Source: Winogradskyella immobilis (GTDB lineage: Bacteria > Bacteroidota > Bacteroidia > Flavobacteriales > Flavobacteriaceae). From it: 64,000 nucleotides of DNA. The stretch is taken from positions 1 to 64,000 of the forward strand of contig NZ_JAIQXX010000002.1 of NCBI RefSeq assembly GCF_021887715.1, given 5' to 3'. The position numbers and the translations under genes were made by a program. The notes under the pieces are model-generated. The model did not search any database, was not told the origin of the DNA, and was given only the letters and a program-made list of their open reading frames with translations. Positions 1 to 4,416 of this stretch are shown piece by piece. Positions within the stretch are counted from its first letter, which is position 1, and every line of letters starts with the position of its first letter.

Positions 1-85
1 AGCTTCACCGTGTATACTAACCTTATTTCTCTCTTTTGTTCTTTCTGATTAATATATCTAATGTAATAGATTGTAAACTTAAGAC

Positions 86-209
86 GTGTATAATTAATTG
101 CTATGGCTAGTGCTTCTCACGAAAATTCCTTCGGAATTTCCTCTGGCAAGTATTTGTTTACTAAATTAGTTGCTGAACCACGCAACTAACTATACACCAA
201 ACGTTAGGC
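86..209 (+). repeat. attC-like imperfect palindromic repeat, copy A
   Basis: Outer arms GTGTATA (86-92) and TATACAC (191-197) are complementary. Inside are a hairpin AAATTCC/GGAATTT (123-129/133-139) and a hairpin TTAGTTGC/GCAACTAA (166-173/182-189). The right end reads GTTAGGC (203-209), which fits the GTTRRRY core of integron attC sites. A diverged copy lies at 2915-3046 and shares the inner block TTTGTTTACTAAATTAGTT. That it is a recombination site is inference; no integrase is in the window. The 85 bases before it hold nothing I can identify. Confidence 0.5.
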
Positions 210-247
210 ATAATTTACGCGATTCGCCTTGAAACAGAATTTAAAAT

Positions 248-647
248 ATGATTGAAAAAGAAAAAATAAAATCTTTTTATAATAAATATTTTGAAATCCT
301 AAAATTGGAAATCAAAGAATTAGGATGTAAACCGACTGAATTAAGGCATTTAATTTGGTAGGCTTGGAGAATTTTATTGTGTTATTAAAACAAACGGAAA
401 AAAAATTAGCGTGAAAACTACTGCTCAAAAATCTGGATTTGTTTCTATTAACAAGAAAACAATGGAATTATTTGACGAATTAATGGTTTTACAACTTATT
501 GATTTGGAATTTCACCAACTTTATTACAGAACTATGAAAGAAATAGAACCTTTGTGTAGAGTTTGGAAAGGAAACCTTAACAAATATGAATTAGATTTAT
601 CGAAATTAAAAACTATGCCTAACAATCTTAGAAATGAAAAACATTAG
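248..647 (+). pseudogene. frameshifted remnant of a small DUF6998-like protein gene
   Basis: An ATG at 248 opens a 37-codon reading frame ending ...TELRHLIW at a TAG (359-361). One base too many in the T run at 354-356 explains the stop. Reading from 357 in the next frame gives GRLGEFYCVIKTNGKKISVKTTAQKSG and runs without a stop to 647, so both halves look like one protein. From memory this resembles a small protein family common in Flavobacteria (DUF6998-like), whose members are longer between the CVIKTN and GKKISV segments, so an internal deletion is also likely. The GTG at 411 is therefore probably not a real start. The 3' end overlaps the next gene by 14 bases and contains ATGCCTAAC (614-622), the complement of the GTTAGGCAT at 203-211. 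Function unknown. Confidence 0.6.
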
Positions 648-1086
648 AATTATCATCACCTCATTTAGCTTTATTCTGCTTACTTCTTGTGCATTAAAAC
701 CAATTACTTCAGAATATACATTCATAAAAACTAACATAGAAAATGTTGAACTGAATGACCTAGGCAATGGAAATGTTCTGATTTATAACGGAGCAAATAT
801 TTTACACAAAATGGACAATACAGCTCGACTGAATATTTGGCTTGACCAAAAACCTCTTGGACAAATTAGACCAAGCGAATATGTAATTATAAACCTCAAA
901 AAAGGGAAACACCATTTTAAAGTATTACATATTGATGTTGTGAATATGAGAAGTGAACACGAAATTGAAATAGATAACAAAACCAAAATCATAAAAATAA
1001 AACCAACTATAACATCGAATAAATTAGAAATGACAAATGAGTTGCCTAAAAATTTCGATAAGTTTAAATATGCAGAGAAAAGATAA
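634..1086 (+). CDS. small lipoprotein, DUF2846-like
   Basis: 150 residues. The N-terminus is a lipoprotein signal (IIITSFSFILLTSC, Cys at 19), so the product is probably anchored to a membrane from the periplasmic side. The middle part (about 65-125) reads LNIWLDQKPLGQIRPSEYV, then a Gly-Lys-His turn and a beta-rich stretch. This matches the pattern of DUF2846-like proteins, in which a short surface-display beta domain carries a ligand-poor core. The protein encoded at 48952-49500 shows the same pattern. Function is unknown. It overlaps the remnant upstream and is followed by a short attC-like repeat, so it looks like cargo of a gene-cassette region. Confidence 0.65.
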   Translation: MKNIRIIITSFSFILLTSCALKPITSEYTFIKTNIENVELNDLGNGNVLIYNGANILHKMDNTARLNIWLDQKPLGQIRPSEYVIINLKKGKHHFKVLHIDVVNMRSEHEIEIDNKTKIIKIKPTITSNKLEMTNELPKNFDKFKYAEKR

Positions 1087-1090
1087 AAAA

Positions 1091-1122
1091 CGCAACTACT
1101 CATAGCCGAGACCGTTATGTGC
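1091..1122 (+). repeat. short attC-like site
   Basis: CGCAACTA, then CATAGCCGAGACC, then GTTATGTGC (1114-1122). It resembles the right part of copy A (CGCAACTAACTATACACCAAAC-GTTAGGC). Its last nine bases are the exact complement of GCACATAAC at 2915-2923, so the serine hydrolase gene lies between complementary ends. A related short copy lies at 3345-3372. Confidence 0.45.
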
Positions 1123-1203
1123 AATTTATGCATACAAAATGTAACATATTGTTATATACATATACTAATTACAACAAAATCAATCAATCAATCAATAACC
1201 TGA

Positions 1204-2910
1204 ATGAATTACTTTAATCAAGCTGTGATAATATGCATTTGCATATTTTTTTTAATACCAAAAATCGAAGCACAAAATATTGTAGAAAAAAAACCTTTTG
1301 AAATTAACCAAATAGAGCAAAAGATTGATCGTCTTTTAAAAAATTACAATTTTAAAAAGCCCGGTTTAGCAATAGGAGTTGTCTATAAGGATAACTTAGT
1401 AATTCAAAAGCAATATGGGCTTGCAAATGTGGAACATCAGATTCCTATAACTAAAAAAACGTCTTTTCACGTCGCTTCAGTTTCTAAACAATTTACCGCA
1501 TTTGCTCTTTTTCAGCTAGAAGATGAAGGAAAACTTTCATTGGAGGATGATATTAGAAAATACTTACCTGAGATGAATGAGTTTGATTTTAAAATAACGA
1601 TCAAACACCTTCTTAATCATACAAGTGGAATAAAAGATCAATGGAATTTATTGAGACTTGGAGGATGGCGTTTAAATGATTTTATTACTAATAGTCAAGT
1701 ACTTGAAATTCTTTTTAATCAAAAGTCATTGAATTTCAAACCGAATGAAGATTTTATGTATAGCAACTCGGGCTACACACTTTTAGCTGAAATTGTTTCA
1801 AGAGTGTCTGGAAAATCTTTTTCAGACTATACAAAGAAGCATATTTTTAATCCTTTGAAAATGTACAACACTCAATTTATAGATACGGAAGGTCAAATAA
1901 TAAAAAATAAAAGTTATTCATATTATAAAGAAGGTTCTTATTTTATTGAAGATGTGTTTAACAATATAAGTATAGGTGCTACAAACTTATCTACAACCAT
2001 TGAAGATTTAAGTAAATGGGCAATTAACTTTAATGAGAAAAATATTGGGAACGGTGAGGTTTTTCAAAAAATGAATAGATTAGAAAAACTTAATAACGGG
2101 AGTTTTTATGGCTATGCTAATGGGCAATTTATAAACGAATATAGAGGTTTAAAAAGAATAGAACATAGTGGTCAAGATGCAAGTTATATAGCATATTTAG
2201 GAAGATTTCCTAATCAAGGTATTAGTATTATATTCACAAGTAATAGTTCGGAGATTAATGGAAGTCAACTTGTAAGACAAATAACAGACATCTGTTTAAA
2301 TGAATATTTTCCCAAAAAACAGGCTAACAATAATATATCCAATAAATCATTAATAAGTAAAAAACCAATTAAAAAAAGCTTAGAAGAATTAAAATCTTTT
2401 GAGGGGTATTATTGGAATGAAAAAGACGATTATTCAAGGCAAATCAAACTTCAAAATAATACATTGCAATATATAAGAAATAAGACAGATAAGACTGCAT
2501 TAATTCCTGTCGACGATAATGAATTTGAGATGAAAATCGATGAATATGTTTCAGTACTTTTTAACCCTGAACAAGTAATCGTTACATTAGATGATGGAGA
2601 GAAGATTTTCTTGGATAAATATATTCCCGCAAATTATAGCTCGAATTCTTTAAAAGAGTTTGAAGGGAATTATTATAGTACTGAATTAAATTCTTATTAT
2701 ACTTTTTTTATTCAAAACGATACTCTTATAGCTAATCACCAAAGACTAGGAGATTTCAAAATGAAAGCAATCAAGAATGATTATTTTATTGGCAATAAAG
2801 GTTCCTTTCAAAAAGTAAAGTTTGTGAGAAATGATTTAGATGAGATATTAGGTTTTAAAGTATCTAGTAGTCGGGCAAAAAACGTTTCATTTAATAAAAT
2901 TATAGAATAA
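1204..2910 (+). CDS. secreted serine hydrolase, class C beta-lactamase / penicillin-binding protein-like
   Basis: 568 residues with a signal peptide (MNYFNQAVIICICIFFLIPKIEAQ). The catalytic motifs of the beta-lactamase class C / DD-peptidase fold are intact: SVSK (Ser92, Lys95), YSN (186-188) and HSG (321-323, in place of KTG). The catalytic domain spans about 35-365. A C-terminal beta-rich region of about 190 residues (380-568) resembles the lipocalin-like extensions common in Bacteroidetes members of this family. Likely an exported peptidase or esterase; the substrate cannot be told, and antibiotic hydrolysis is not implied. The gene stands alone between attC-like sites with complementary ends (1114-1122 and 2915-2923), which suggests arrival as a cassette. 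No clear promoter was found in the 80 bases upstream. Confidence 0.88.
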   Translation: MNYFNQAVIICICIFFLIPKIEAQNIVEKKPFEINQIEQKIDRLLKNYNFKKPGLAIGVVYKDNLVIQKQYGLANVEHQIPITKKTSFHVASVSKQFTAFALFQLEDEGKLSLEDDIRKYLPEMNEFDFKITIKHLLNHTSGIKDQWNLLRLGGWRLNDFITNSQVLEILFNQKSLNFKPNEDFMYSNSGYTLLAEIVSRVSGKSFSDYTKKHIFNPLKMYNTQFIDTEGQIIKNKSYSYYKEGSYFIEDVFNNISIGATNLSTTIEDLSKWAINFNEKNIGNGEVFQKMNRLEKLNNGSFYGYANGQFINEYRGLKRIEHSGQDASYIAYLGRFPNQGISIIFTSNSSEINGSQLVRQITDICLNEYFPKKQANNNISNKSLISKKPIKKSLEELKSFEGYYWNEKDDYSRQIKLQNNTLQYIRNKTDKTALIPVDDNEFEMKIDEYVSVLFNPEQVIVTLDDGEKIFLDKYIPANYSSNSLKEFEGNYYSTELNSYYTFFIQNDTLIANHQRLGDFKMKAIKNDYFIGNKGSFQKVKFVRNDLDEILGFKVSSSRAKNVSFNKIIE

Positions 2911-2914
2911 AACA

Positions 2915-3046
2915 GCACATAACACCATATATAATTTATTGCTAGTTTTAGATTGATTACGAAAATTCCGCTAGAATTTCCTATCTATGATTTGTTTACT
3001 AAATTAGTTTCTTAAACATGTAACAAACCATATACCAAACGATGAT
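2915..3046 (+). repeat. attC-like imperfect palindromic repeat, copy B
   Basis: Starts GCACATAAC, has the hairpin AAATTC/GAATTT, shares the block TTTGTTTACTAAATTAGTT with copy A and ends ACCATATACCAAACG before GATGATG. Outer arms (ATATA.../...ATATAC) correspond to those of copy A, but the right core is degenerate. It directly follows the serine hydrolase stop codon. Confidence 0.5.
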
Positions 3047-3122
3047 GTAGAATACGCCTGCGGTGTACTTTTGTCTATGCTGCTTCGCAGACAATACATC
3101 CAAAAGCAATTCTACATCATCG
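3040..3122 (+). repeat. long non-coding palindrome
   Basis: The 14-base arms CGATGATGTAGAAT (3040-3053) and ATTCTACATCATCG (3109-3122) are perfect complements. Further pairing occurs inside: CTTTTG/CAAAAG (3068-3073/3101-3106) and CTGC-TTC-GCAG at the centre. No reading frame is present. It could be a very small cassette with complementary ends, a mobile palindrome, or a structured RNA. Confidence 0.55.
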
Positions 3123-3396
3123 CTACGCTATGCCAATTGCTACAACACATTTAATCAGTTATTATTTACTAGTTTCGCCGCTAAGGCTAATTAACTCTAC
3201 ATATCAATCCCTATATGCAATTGGTTGCTCTTTTTTTGTTCCCAATAAAAGAAAAATCCAAGTTAAAGCTCGCCTTGCGAGCTAACTAAAGTCGATAATT
3301 GGCAATCATCAACACGATTTTTCATTATCTTCACAAAAAAACAGACAACTGCACATAGCGCAGCGTTGTCACAGGCTTGAGACACTCTGAATAAAA
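3123..3396. other. non-coding stretch with hairpin and short attC-like copy
   Basis: No gene seen. It contains a hairpin AGCTCGC-CTT-GCGAGCT (3267-3283) and, at 3345-3372, a sequence (ACAACTGCACATAGCGCAGC, then GTTGTCAC) like the short site at 1091-1122. This second site marks the edge of the accessory patch against pheS. Confidence 0.4.
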
Positions 3397-4416
3397 CTAA
3401 AACGCGCTCTTAAACTGTTCTAAAAAGCGCACGTCGTTTTCACTTAACAAACGGATATCACTAATTTGATGAAGTAACAATGCTATACGGTCTATTCCCA
3501 TACCAAACGCAAAACCAGAATATTCTTTAGAGTCAATACCACAATTATCCAATACGTTAGGATCTACCATACCACAGCCCATAATCTCTAACCAACCTGT
3601 ACCTTTGGTCATTTTGTAATCGGTTTCGGTTTCTAAACCCCAATACACATCGACTTCAGCACTTGGTTCTGTAAACGGAAAATACGATGGACGCAAACGT
3701 ATTTTAGACTTACCAAACATCTCGGTTGTAAAATACTGCAAGGTTTGTTTTAAATCTGCAAAACTCACATCCTTATCGATATACAATCCTTCTACCTGAT
3801 GAAAAAAGCAGTGTGAGCGTGCTGATATAGCTTCGTTTCTGTAAACACGACCTGGTGAAATGGTACGAATCGGTGGTTTGTTATTTTCCATATAACGTAC
3901 TTGTACCGAACTGGTGTGTGTACGTAATAAAATATCAGGATTGGTTTGCACAAAAAATGTGTCTTGCATATCTCTAGCTGGATGATATTCAGGTAAATTT
4001 AATGCTGTAAAATTATGCCAATCGTCTTCAATCTCTGGACCTTCGCTAACATTAAATCCAATACTAGAAAAAATATCTATAATACGATTTTTAACTATAG
4101 AAATTGGATGACGTGCTCCAATAGAAATGGGTTCTCCTGGGCGCGACAAATCTCCATAAACTCCTTGATCGTCTTCTTTGTTTTCTATAGCTTCTTTTAA
4201 ACTATTTACTTTATTCTGCGCTGTATTCTTTAGCTCATTAATAATCTGTCCAAACTCTTTCTTCTGGTCATTAGCCACATGCTTAAGCTCTGCATAAAAC
4301 TCAGTAAGTAATCCTTTTTTACCTAAATATTTTATACGAAACGCTTCAATCTCTTCTTTAGATTGTGCTTTAAACGCTTCTGCTTCTACGATGAGTTCTC
4401 TTATCTTATCTATCAT
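3397..4416 (-). CDS. pheS: phenylalanine--tRNA ligase alpha subunit
   Basis: 339 residues, the normal length of bacterial PheS. It is the catalytic subunit of the alpha2-beta2 enzyme that charges tRNA-Phe in the cytoplasm. The N-terminal 90 residues form the helical tRNA-binding arm (EIEAFRIKYLGKKGLLTEF). Class II synthetase motifs follow: motif 2 around YRNEAISARSHCFFHQVEGL and motif 3 at GFAFGMGIDRIALLL near the end. The initiator ATG at 4416 starts MIDKIRELI. pheT is not adjacent, as is usual in Bacteroidetes. A TAAATTTG -10 element lies about 55 bases upstream. Identification is secure. Confidence 0.97.
   Translation of the reverse strand: MIDKIRELIVEAEAFKAQSKEEIEAFRIKYLGKKGLLTEFYAELKHVANDQKKEFGQIINELKNTAQNKVNSLKEAIENKEDDQGVYGDLSRPGEPISIGARHPISIVKNRIIDIFSSIGFNVSEGPEIEDDWHNFTALNLPEYHPARDMQDTFFVQTNPDILLRTHTSSVQVRYMENNKPPIRTISPGRVYRNEAISARSHCFFHQVEGLYIDKDVSFADLKQTLQYFTTEMFGKSKIRLRPSYFPFTEPSAEVDVYWGLETETDYKMTKGTGWLEIMGCGMVDPNVLDNCGIDSKEYSGFAFGMGIDRIALLLHQISDIRLLSENDVRFLEQFKSAF

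Follow-up and report, generated by a model that had tools for sequence, protein, structure and literature searches.

Repeats in Winogradskyella are probably recombination sites of a large integron-like cassette capture system of the Flavobacteriaceae

The left edge of a 64-kb stretch of Winogradskyella immobilis DNA (the window; G000:C22:1-64000, G000 being the window's own genome, a draft assembly of 3.0 Mb in 82 contigs) contains imperfectly palindromic repeats between its genes. An earlier note took these repeats for attC-like sites and suggested site-specific shuffling of gene cassettes in Bacteroidetes. The question raised by this locus is whether the repeats are recombination sites and, if so, to what kind of system they belong. 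Support for the suggestion was obtained at a larger scale: sites, a cassette end rule, a recombinase and cassettes found in two places, all read from sequence, indicate that the repeats are very probably the recombination sites of a large integron-like cassette capture system. We have high confidence that this predicted system would work like an integron. It is outside the IntI family, as the enzyme has no IntI-defining domain and the sites have neither the GTTRRRY box nor, for the most part, bulged bases.

The first repeat of the window (site 1, 84-212) was compared with its own 3.0-Mb genome by blast, which gave 42 hits at E<=10; the E value is below 1e-3 for 31. A site profile of 121 columns was applied to the stretches fetched from each genome, and matches were counted at E<=1e-3. 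The own genome has 41 matches in these stretches, 36 of them full-length, and one more on contig C18; all fetched stretches of all genomes together have 315. A site is possibly counted twice where the assembly broke it, and some partial matches are cut by contig ends. Small contigs (C19, C21, C23, C28) contain one-strand site arrays, and several contigs start or stop inside a site.

The cassettes of these arrays follow an end rule. A cassette begins with 10 nucleotides (nt; GTT plus seven) whose reverse complement forms the 10 nt (seven plus AAC) opening its own site. The rule was examined in 256 neighbouring pairs of sites from 15 genomes, with both ends readable and less than 6 kb apart; sites outside this set lie at ends or have no readable AAC or GTT. 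A match of 9-10 nt was present in 201/256 pairs, with 152 matching over exactly 10 nt and none over more. In 1000 shuffles of the partners, where the AAC could be shifted just as in the real pairs, matches of 9-10 nt averaged 4.0 and reached a maximum of 13, so complementary ends are far commoner than chance. In a stricter count without the AAC shift, all seven variable positions match in 135/254 pairs (shuffled mean 2.0, maximum 9). The rule is followed by 96/101 pairs less than 700 nt apart and by 5/16 pairs more than 2500 nt apart. In the examples inspected, the base next to the 10-nt box is fixed and unpaired on either side. The earlier note was right that the ends are complementary within each cassette, but its 7-nt GTTRRRY box was not borne out, since the box is 10 nt long and the fifth base is a purine in only 97/254 right ends. 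A 7-nt end-length scan of canonical integron loci was too noisy and was not used as a yardstick.

The 10-nt boxes differ from cassette to cassette like a bar code. Within a single site, left and right end are not complementary (2.64/7 positions in 276 sites vs 2.53 in shuffled pairs); in a free circle both ends of the site would derive from one cassette and would match. A typical cassette consists of one gene and a site of ~121 nt, with the 10-nt complementary box at both ends. 149 of 246 cassettes follow the rule exactly and have a site body of 95-140 nt. The longest open reading frame (ORF) of at least 50 amino acids lies on the same strand in 139 of these 149 and on the opposite strand in 6; the remaining 4 have none.

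A bottom-strand alignment of 48 diverse sites predicts a stem of 17 base pairs, with compensatory changes at 8/17 pairs. Wobble G.T (or T.G) occurs at four stem pairs, in 48, 47, 42 and 24 of the 48 sites, and the same positions are A.C mismatches on the top strand. Predicted folding is better on the bottom strand for 264/277 sites (3 ties), compared with 74/297 pieces of nearby cassette control DNA. Predicted folding favours the bottom strand because the G.T pairs of the stem become A.C on the top strand. The stem is mostly bulge-free: extra bases occur at two stem columns, where 7/48 sites have one and 41/48 have none.

Which enzyme might act on these sites? As the earlier note stated, no integrase is encoded in the window; a recombinase that heads an array was found elsewhere in the genome, on contig C13. 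This protein of 393 amino acids (G000:C13:1998-3179, minus strand) is the best match in the own genome to the integron integrase profile TIGR02249. It is a tyrosine recombinase (PF00589, PF13495) and not a canonical IntI, scoring 121 and 87 bits against a profile cut-off of 265. Directly after the recombinase gene come an attI-like sequence (ATATAACGAG, then TTG) and cassettes that share the gene's reading direction. By its sequence and its place beside the recombinase gene, where the first cassette begins, the attI-like sequence is a candidate attI. A divergent site lies beside the same gene, where GTTGGCAAC (C13:1961-1953) pairs with GTTGCCAAC (1008-1000) and the site model is blank.

The link between recombinase and array was examined using 17 array-type recombinases of the genus, one per genome, which were sorted into types A, B and C by their sequence and by the sequence after the stop codon. 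A same-strand site was identified downstream within 3.8 kb in 14/17 and upstream in 0/17 of the stretches read. Of the other three, two are close to a contig end (107 and 497 nt away), and the third has no site match over 3.6 kb. Type A (10 genomes) has ATATAACNAGTT after the stop codon in 8/10 and close variants in 2, while type B (5 genomes) has an inverted repeat ending in TATATCCARTTGTT in 5/5. For the 14 recombinases with a downstream site, the complement of the box of the first detected site was located exactly at the attI-like point in 5 (G019, G003, G013, G031, G008) and further downstream in 5; it was not found in 4.

The alignment of the own recombinase to the Vibrio integron integrase 2a3v falls into two blocks, with query 280-294 against chain 183-240 at the break. 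13 residues separate the blocks in the own recombinase vs 56 in the Vibrio protein, and this is the place of the IntI-specific domain. Two motifs are 58 residues apart in the own recombinase and 58 or 59 in five named recombinases with downstream sites, compared with 99-101 in nine named canonical IntI rows. The predicted structure has no helix between H268-281 and H298-311. An N-terminal part of ~97 residues ahead of the SAM-like domain is modelled as strands and two helices, and we guess that this part (1 to ~97) might serve DNA binding.

Signs of cassette movement were obtained from related genomes. The close relatives G013 and G031 share 96% identity across the 1,045 nt that run to the G|TT point after the attI-like sequence, and 33% across the following 200 nt, where they are unrelated. 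Ten homologous cassette pairs were identified among the 246 cassettes. In each pair both members begin precisely with the GTT and have the same 10-nt box, and for 9/10 the alignment stops no more than 6 nt short of the cassette end. Four pairs are 99.6-100% identical inside one genome, and the three at 100% have non-homologous neighbours on both sides; the members of five pairs come from different species and are 91-98% identical. In another genome (L135-L136, G005:C2:1-39999) a 242-kb contig has 40 site matches in its initial 40 kb, where two cassettes are duplicated and 100% identical.

A cassette cycle can be proposed from these features. Recombination between two sites would excise cassettes, and in the excised circle a cassette's two boxes would come to lie side by side. 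The site's bottom strand would then fold into the 17-base-pair stem with its conserved G.T pairs, closed by the now-matching 10-nt box. The recombinase would swap strands between G and TT at attI, which would add the cassette next to the enzyme gene. In this scheme we infer the own recombinase as the actor, folded single-stranded DNA as the substrate, and the cut position.

How widespread is the site? Blast identified the site in the own genome, in 34/36 further genomes of the same genus and in 0/23 genomes of other families of the order. A covariance model (R1) was built from the own genome and relatives; it models the bottom strand, and the window sites therefore score opposite to the cassette genes. 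R1 identified the site in 242/299 sampled genomes and 198/236 genera of Flavobacteriaceae. In a sample of the phylum 43/395 genomes were positive, 19 from the own family and 24 from others; among the negatives listed, 19/20 belong to one genus of the own family, and there are 332 more negatives. 6/10 named Bacteroidota were positive, compared with 0/10 named genomes outside Bacteroidota, which included Vibrio atypicus and Nitrosomonas, whose loci have canonical IntI. No match was found in the phage records searched. Two large plasmids of Tenacibaculum finnmarkense, CP116296.1 and CP116298.1, carry one site each, about 75% identical; such plasmids are a possible route by which the site spread.

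Sites were also identified at 6/80 named recombinase loci. In five the sites are downstream of the recombinase gene and on its strand: Winogradskyella ursingii, Seonamhaeicola aphaedonensis, Flavobacteriaceae S0862, Algibacter onchidii and one Sphingobacteriales metagenome-assembled genome. In the sixth, L189, they are upstream and on the other strand. There are probably further types of site, as a genome of another family (G055; L128, G055:C1:910000-929999) has an array with the same end rule in which the model finds nothing. There a scan for chained 10-nt complementary ends gave gaps of 119, 119, 119, 119 and 118 nt and one of 79. Elsewhere it gave single gaps of 112 (G049), 85 (G029) and 187 (G027), which may be chance, and none in G042 and G052. 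The scan was run de novo on the 54/80 named loci with at least 1500 nt downstream, and at least one chain was found in L157, L161, L162, L169, L175, L178 and L186, the last of which looks like chance. No chain was found upstream among the ten loci listed. A scan of the opposite strand is no control, because the end rule is symmetric.

With these results the left edge of the window can be read as follows.

1-83, plus strand: right end of an insertion sequence (IS) of the IS110/IS1111 family, standing in place of the left (R'') box of site 1; the contig starts inside the element.
81-205, minus strand (bottom strand modelled): attC-like site 1; R1 97.6 bits, E 6e-19; right box GTT at 203-205.
203-623, plus strand: decayed cassette with start GTTAGGCATA (203-212) and end box TATGCCTAAC (614-623), complementary over 10 nt.
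634-1086, plus strand: lipoprotein-like ORF of 150 amino acids with a DUF2846 match under the family cut-off; it occupies the place where the decayed site body is expected.
1091-1116, plus strand: probable right-arm remnant of an attC-like site, ending in GTT, judged by its letters and a weak model match at 1011-1116 (E 1.3).
1114-3041, plus strand: last cassette with start GTTATGTGC (1114-1122), end box GCACATAAC (2915-2923) and site 2; ends complementary over 9 nt.
1204-2910, plus strand: serine hydrolase ORF of the last cassette, of the beta-lactamase fold family (PF00144, E 2.6e-54).
2921-3043, minus strand (bottom strand modelled): attC-like site 2, terminal; R1 80.3 bits, E 3e-15; right end CGAT (3040-3043), not CGTT.
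3041-3121, no strand: complementary pair GATGATGTAGAAT / ATTCTACATCATC immediately outside the array, with no gene or recognisable site.
3397-4416, minus strand: pheS, the chromosomal gene adjoining the array.

Four attC-like sites had been proposed here. Two of them, 81-205 and 2921-3043, are copies of one element of ~121 nt. For 1091-1122 no more than a decayed copy's right arm can be claimed, and the palindrome at 3345-3372 has no model match and is unrelated. The third-best of 17 listed model matches in the window has an E of 0.1, so only two site copies are real. The block TTTGTTTACTAAATTAGTT occurs in exactly 2 copies in the window; with up to 3 mismatches, shuffles average 0.24 copies and 3/100 reach 2. 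Folding each site by itself, as the earlier note recommended, gave modest z-scores for site 1 (-2.0 top strand, -2.5 bottom) and unimpressive ones for site 2 (-0.8 and -1.0). There was no signal at 1091-1122 and 3345-3372 (0.6 and -0.9), and an Rfam scan of window 1-4000 identified no family, even at E 1.

Two of the three end pairs claimed for the window survive. The pair at 203 and 614 is complementary over 10 nt (203-212 with 614-623; the claimed 614-622 was off by one base), and 1114-1122 is complementary to 2915-2923 over 9 nt. Both lie in the register predicted by the genome-wide rule. The third, 3041-3053 with 3109-3121, has GAT/ATC instead of GTT/AAC and no recognisable site after it, and it was not counted. 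A cassette end of GAT/ATC type was considered for 3041-3121 and rejected; three other terminal sites that end in GAT have no such partner. Unanchored 10-nt complementary pairs numbered 0, 2, 2, 2 and 0 in five 10-kb pieces of the remaining window. The two window pairs alone are unconvincing for this reason, and it is the anchoring at site ends over 256 pairs that carries the case. The site body expected past 623 is missing from the decayed cassette, where the ORFs at 248-361 and 411-647 may be one broken gene.

The window edge is thus very likely, as part of the whole explanation, the end of an integrase-less cassette stretch (CALIN) of a sedentary chromosomal integron-type system whose platform is elsewhere in the genome. 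The pheS stretches fetched from 8 other genomes contain no site, and past pheS the DNA varies too much to define an exact empty site. The PheS protein is 90% identical to that of Winogradskyella ursingii and 88% to those of Seonamhaeicola and Algibacter, which by itself does not settle the genus; the assignment to Flavobacteriaceae draws on the named relatives of PheS and of the recombinase. Right ends were scored as GTT or GAT only, and GAT was present in 3/11 terminal sites vs 2/261 internal ones; the terminal site of the window was omitted from this count, having too little sequence after it. These small numbers are suggestive of GAT as a mark of a chromosomal insertion point. Four terminal sites, L078 (C33), L079 (C55), L075 (C24) and L080 (C44), end in GAT (three) or ATT (one) and none in GTT. 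Such ends perhaps mark insertion at chromosomal places other than attI.

The 83 nt at the start of the window are found identically (76 nt in one case) at five contig ends of the own genome; five contigs begin or end in the element, namely that of the window and C28, C24, C9 and C18. The element end abuts (A/C)CGTRTATAAT in 5/5 copies. A full site follows in 4, and the bases ACGTGTATAAT and then other DNA in the fifth. A homologous element in the relative G033 encodes a Transposase_20/DEDD_Tnp_IS110 protein, and its three copies read (L264-L266) abut sites too, one of them a weaker match. Several attC-like sites carry the IS110/IS1111-family element at an identical position, as though they were its target. 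It resembles the IS1111-attC group in recurring at a fixed site point and differs from it in site sequence and host.

The cargo of the arrays is diverse. 137 distinct proteins were scanned from the 139 same-strand cassette ORFs, and they contain 69 Pfam families, 4 with two members and the rest with one. Matches to phage-defence models include GajA, AriA, PD-T4-6, type IIG restriction enzymes and PDC-S73; 25 models are listed with one protein per model, and several models may match one protein. The PF00144 family also includes esterases and peptidases, and nothing in the PF00144 cassette of the window shows drug resistance.

What kind of system is this? Sedentary chromosomal integrons, such as those of Vibrio and Xanthomonas, are similar in many respects: a recombinase gene, an adjacent attI-like sequence, a long one-strand array of gene-plus-site units, AAC/GTT site ends, complementary ends within cassettes, a bottom-strand bias and integrase-less clusters elsewhere. 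attC ends follow a 7-nt consensus, RYYYAAC / GTTRRRY, extrahelical stem bases are a feature of attC, and the integrase gene of known integrons usually points in the opposite direction to the array. The system described here differs on each of these points, with a 10-nt box that has free positions, no extra stem base in 41/48 sites and a recombinase gene that points towards the array. Its recombinase is also without the IntI-specific insertion and has ~97 residues ahead of the SAM-like domain.

The system may be a diverged canonical integron that shares one origin with IntI, either because the Bacteroidota line lost the domain or because IntI acquired it once the two had parted. We regard this as quite possible, short of probable. 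It fits the finding that TIGR02249 picks out the C13 recombinase as its best match in the genome, and the C-terminus of that recombinase aligns with that of the Vibrio integrase. A clade with IntI is also not rejected, with an approximately unbiased p value (p-AU) of 0.33. Against it, the TIGR02249 cut-off was reached by 0/60 genomes, and matches in the PDB place XerA above IntI. In a tree of 69 rows, left after 22/91 had been removed for their length or as belonging to other kinds, 11 IntI rows split off with a support of 100 and 45 Bacteroidota rows with 95. In the tree of all 91 rows the branch with types A, B and C is supported at only 83, and this drop from 95 to 83 in the support for a separate group makes a common origin more credible.

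Tentatively, the system can also be taken as a second, IntI-independent origin of the integron lifestyle, in which a Xer-like recombinase lineage of Bacteroidota would have come to handle folded cassette ends. If that is true, the recombinase would recognise a bulge-free hairpin, with conserved G.T pairs marking the strand and the cassette-specific 10-nt box closing it, and the domain held necessary would not be so. Simple tyrosine recombinases of the XerA/XerH type resemble the own recombinase in having a catalytic domain without the extra domain; XerA is its best PDB match (9e-43), and Foldseek returns XerA and then IntI.

It is improbable that the host's own XerC/XerD move the cassettes, as they do for phages that use Xer on folded DNA, with the array-linked recombinase as a passenger. 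At least one recombinase match at E<=1e-20 is present in 57/60 genomes, and arrays occur in a genome with only Xer-length matches (G034). The mostly bulge-free stem also recalls the CTX phi site that Xer uses: PMC4792948, in its passages on these systems, describes XerCD as without the additional domain and the stem of the CTX phi site as without extrahelical bases. A passenger gene leaves unexplained why types A and B each have their own sequence after the stop codon, at the start of the first cassette. Here, unlike in XerA/XerH systems and Xer-using phages such as CTX phi, the enzyme gene heads a multi-gene array with its own target sequence.

Ordinary repeats between genes, whether repetitive extragenic palindromic (REP), miniature inverted-repeat (MITE)-like or IS-derived, with end matches by chance, would also be imperfect palindromes, multicopy and intergenic, and an IS110-family element does abut some sites; this is scarcely credible, since the sites are not simple REP elements without matching ends, the matching joins the ends of one cassette and not of one repeat, one strand is kept within arrays, an attI-like sequence and a recombinase head the arrays, and units of a gene with its site are found twice, each time beginning at the exact cassette start.

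Several points weigh against an integron-like system with the array-linked recombinase as its enzyme. The end rule is broken by 55/256 neighbouring pairs, mostly at wide spacings, which suggests, as our own guess, that the model missed divergent sites between them, like the one beside the C13 recombinase. What follows the stop codon differs between the two type C recombinases; this sequence is common only within types A and B, which slightly lowers our confidence. The test of recombinases and arrays left out open copies (G001:C2, G002:C16, G026:C48, G016:C8) and copies with internal stops. A related recombinase type (G027, G029 and the named L189) has no downstream site; G029 and L189 have sites upstream instead, on the opposite strand. 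In G034 the stretches read contain 22 sites (arrays, G034:C3, L137, L138), and the genome has only Xer-length recombinase matches, so that arrays may outlive or lack their enzyme. The structure model is moderate (predicted local distance difference test, pLDDT, 79; predicted template modelling score, pTM, 0.48). Finally, the additional domain that the own recombinase is without is called necessary for integron-mediated recombination in the discussion of that domain in PMC9668308.

Bacteroidota are named among the integron-bearing phyla in passages of PMC8618304 and PMC9668308. An integrase survey kept only matches with the additional domain or patch, according to its account of the selection (PMC2426708), and the additional domain is recommended as a filter in a passage of PMC7784347. 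Eleven chromosomal attC taxon models, none of them for Bacteroidota, are given where PMC9176274 describes its models. In the open-access literature, with preprints excluded and long result lists covered in part, we found no description of such arrays in Flavobacteriaceae. If this reading holds, comparing the two systems would allow tests of what the IntI-specific domain does, of how the strand is chosen and of where integrons came from. If the repeats are the recombination sites of an integron-like system, a large marine family would carry integron-type gene reservoirs that domain-based filters would pass over.

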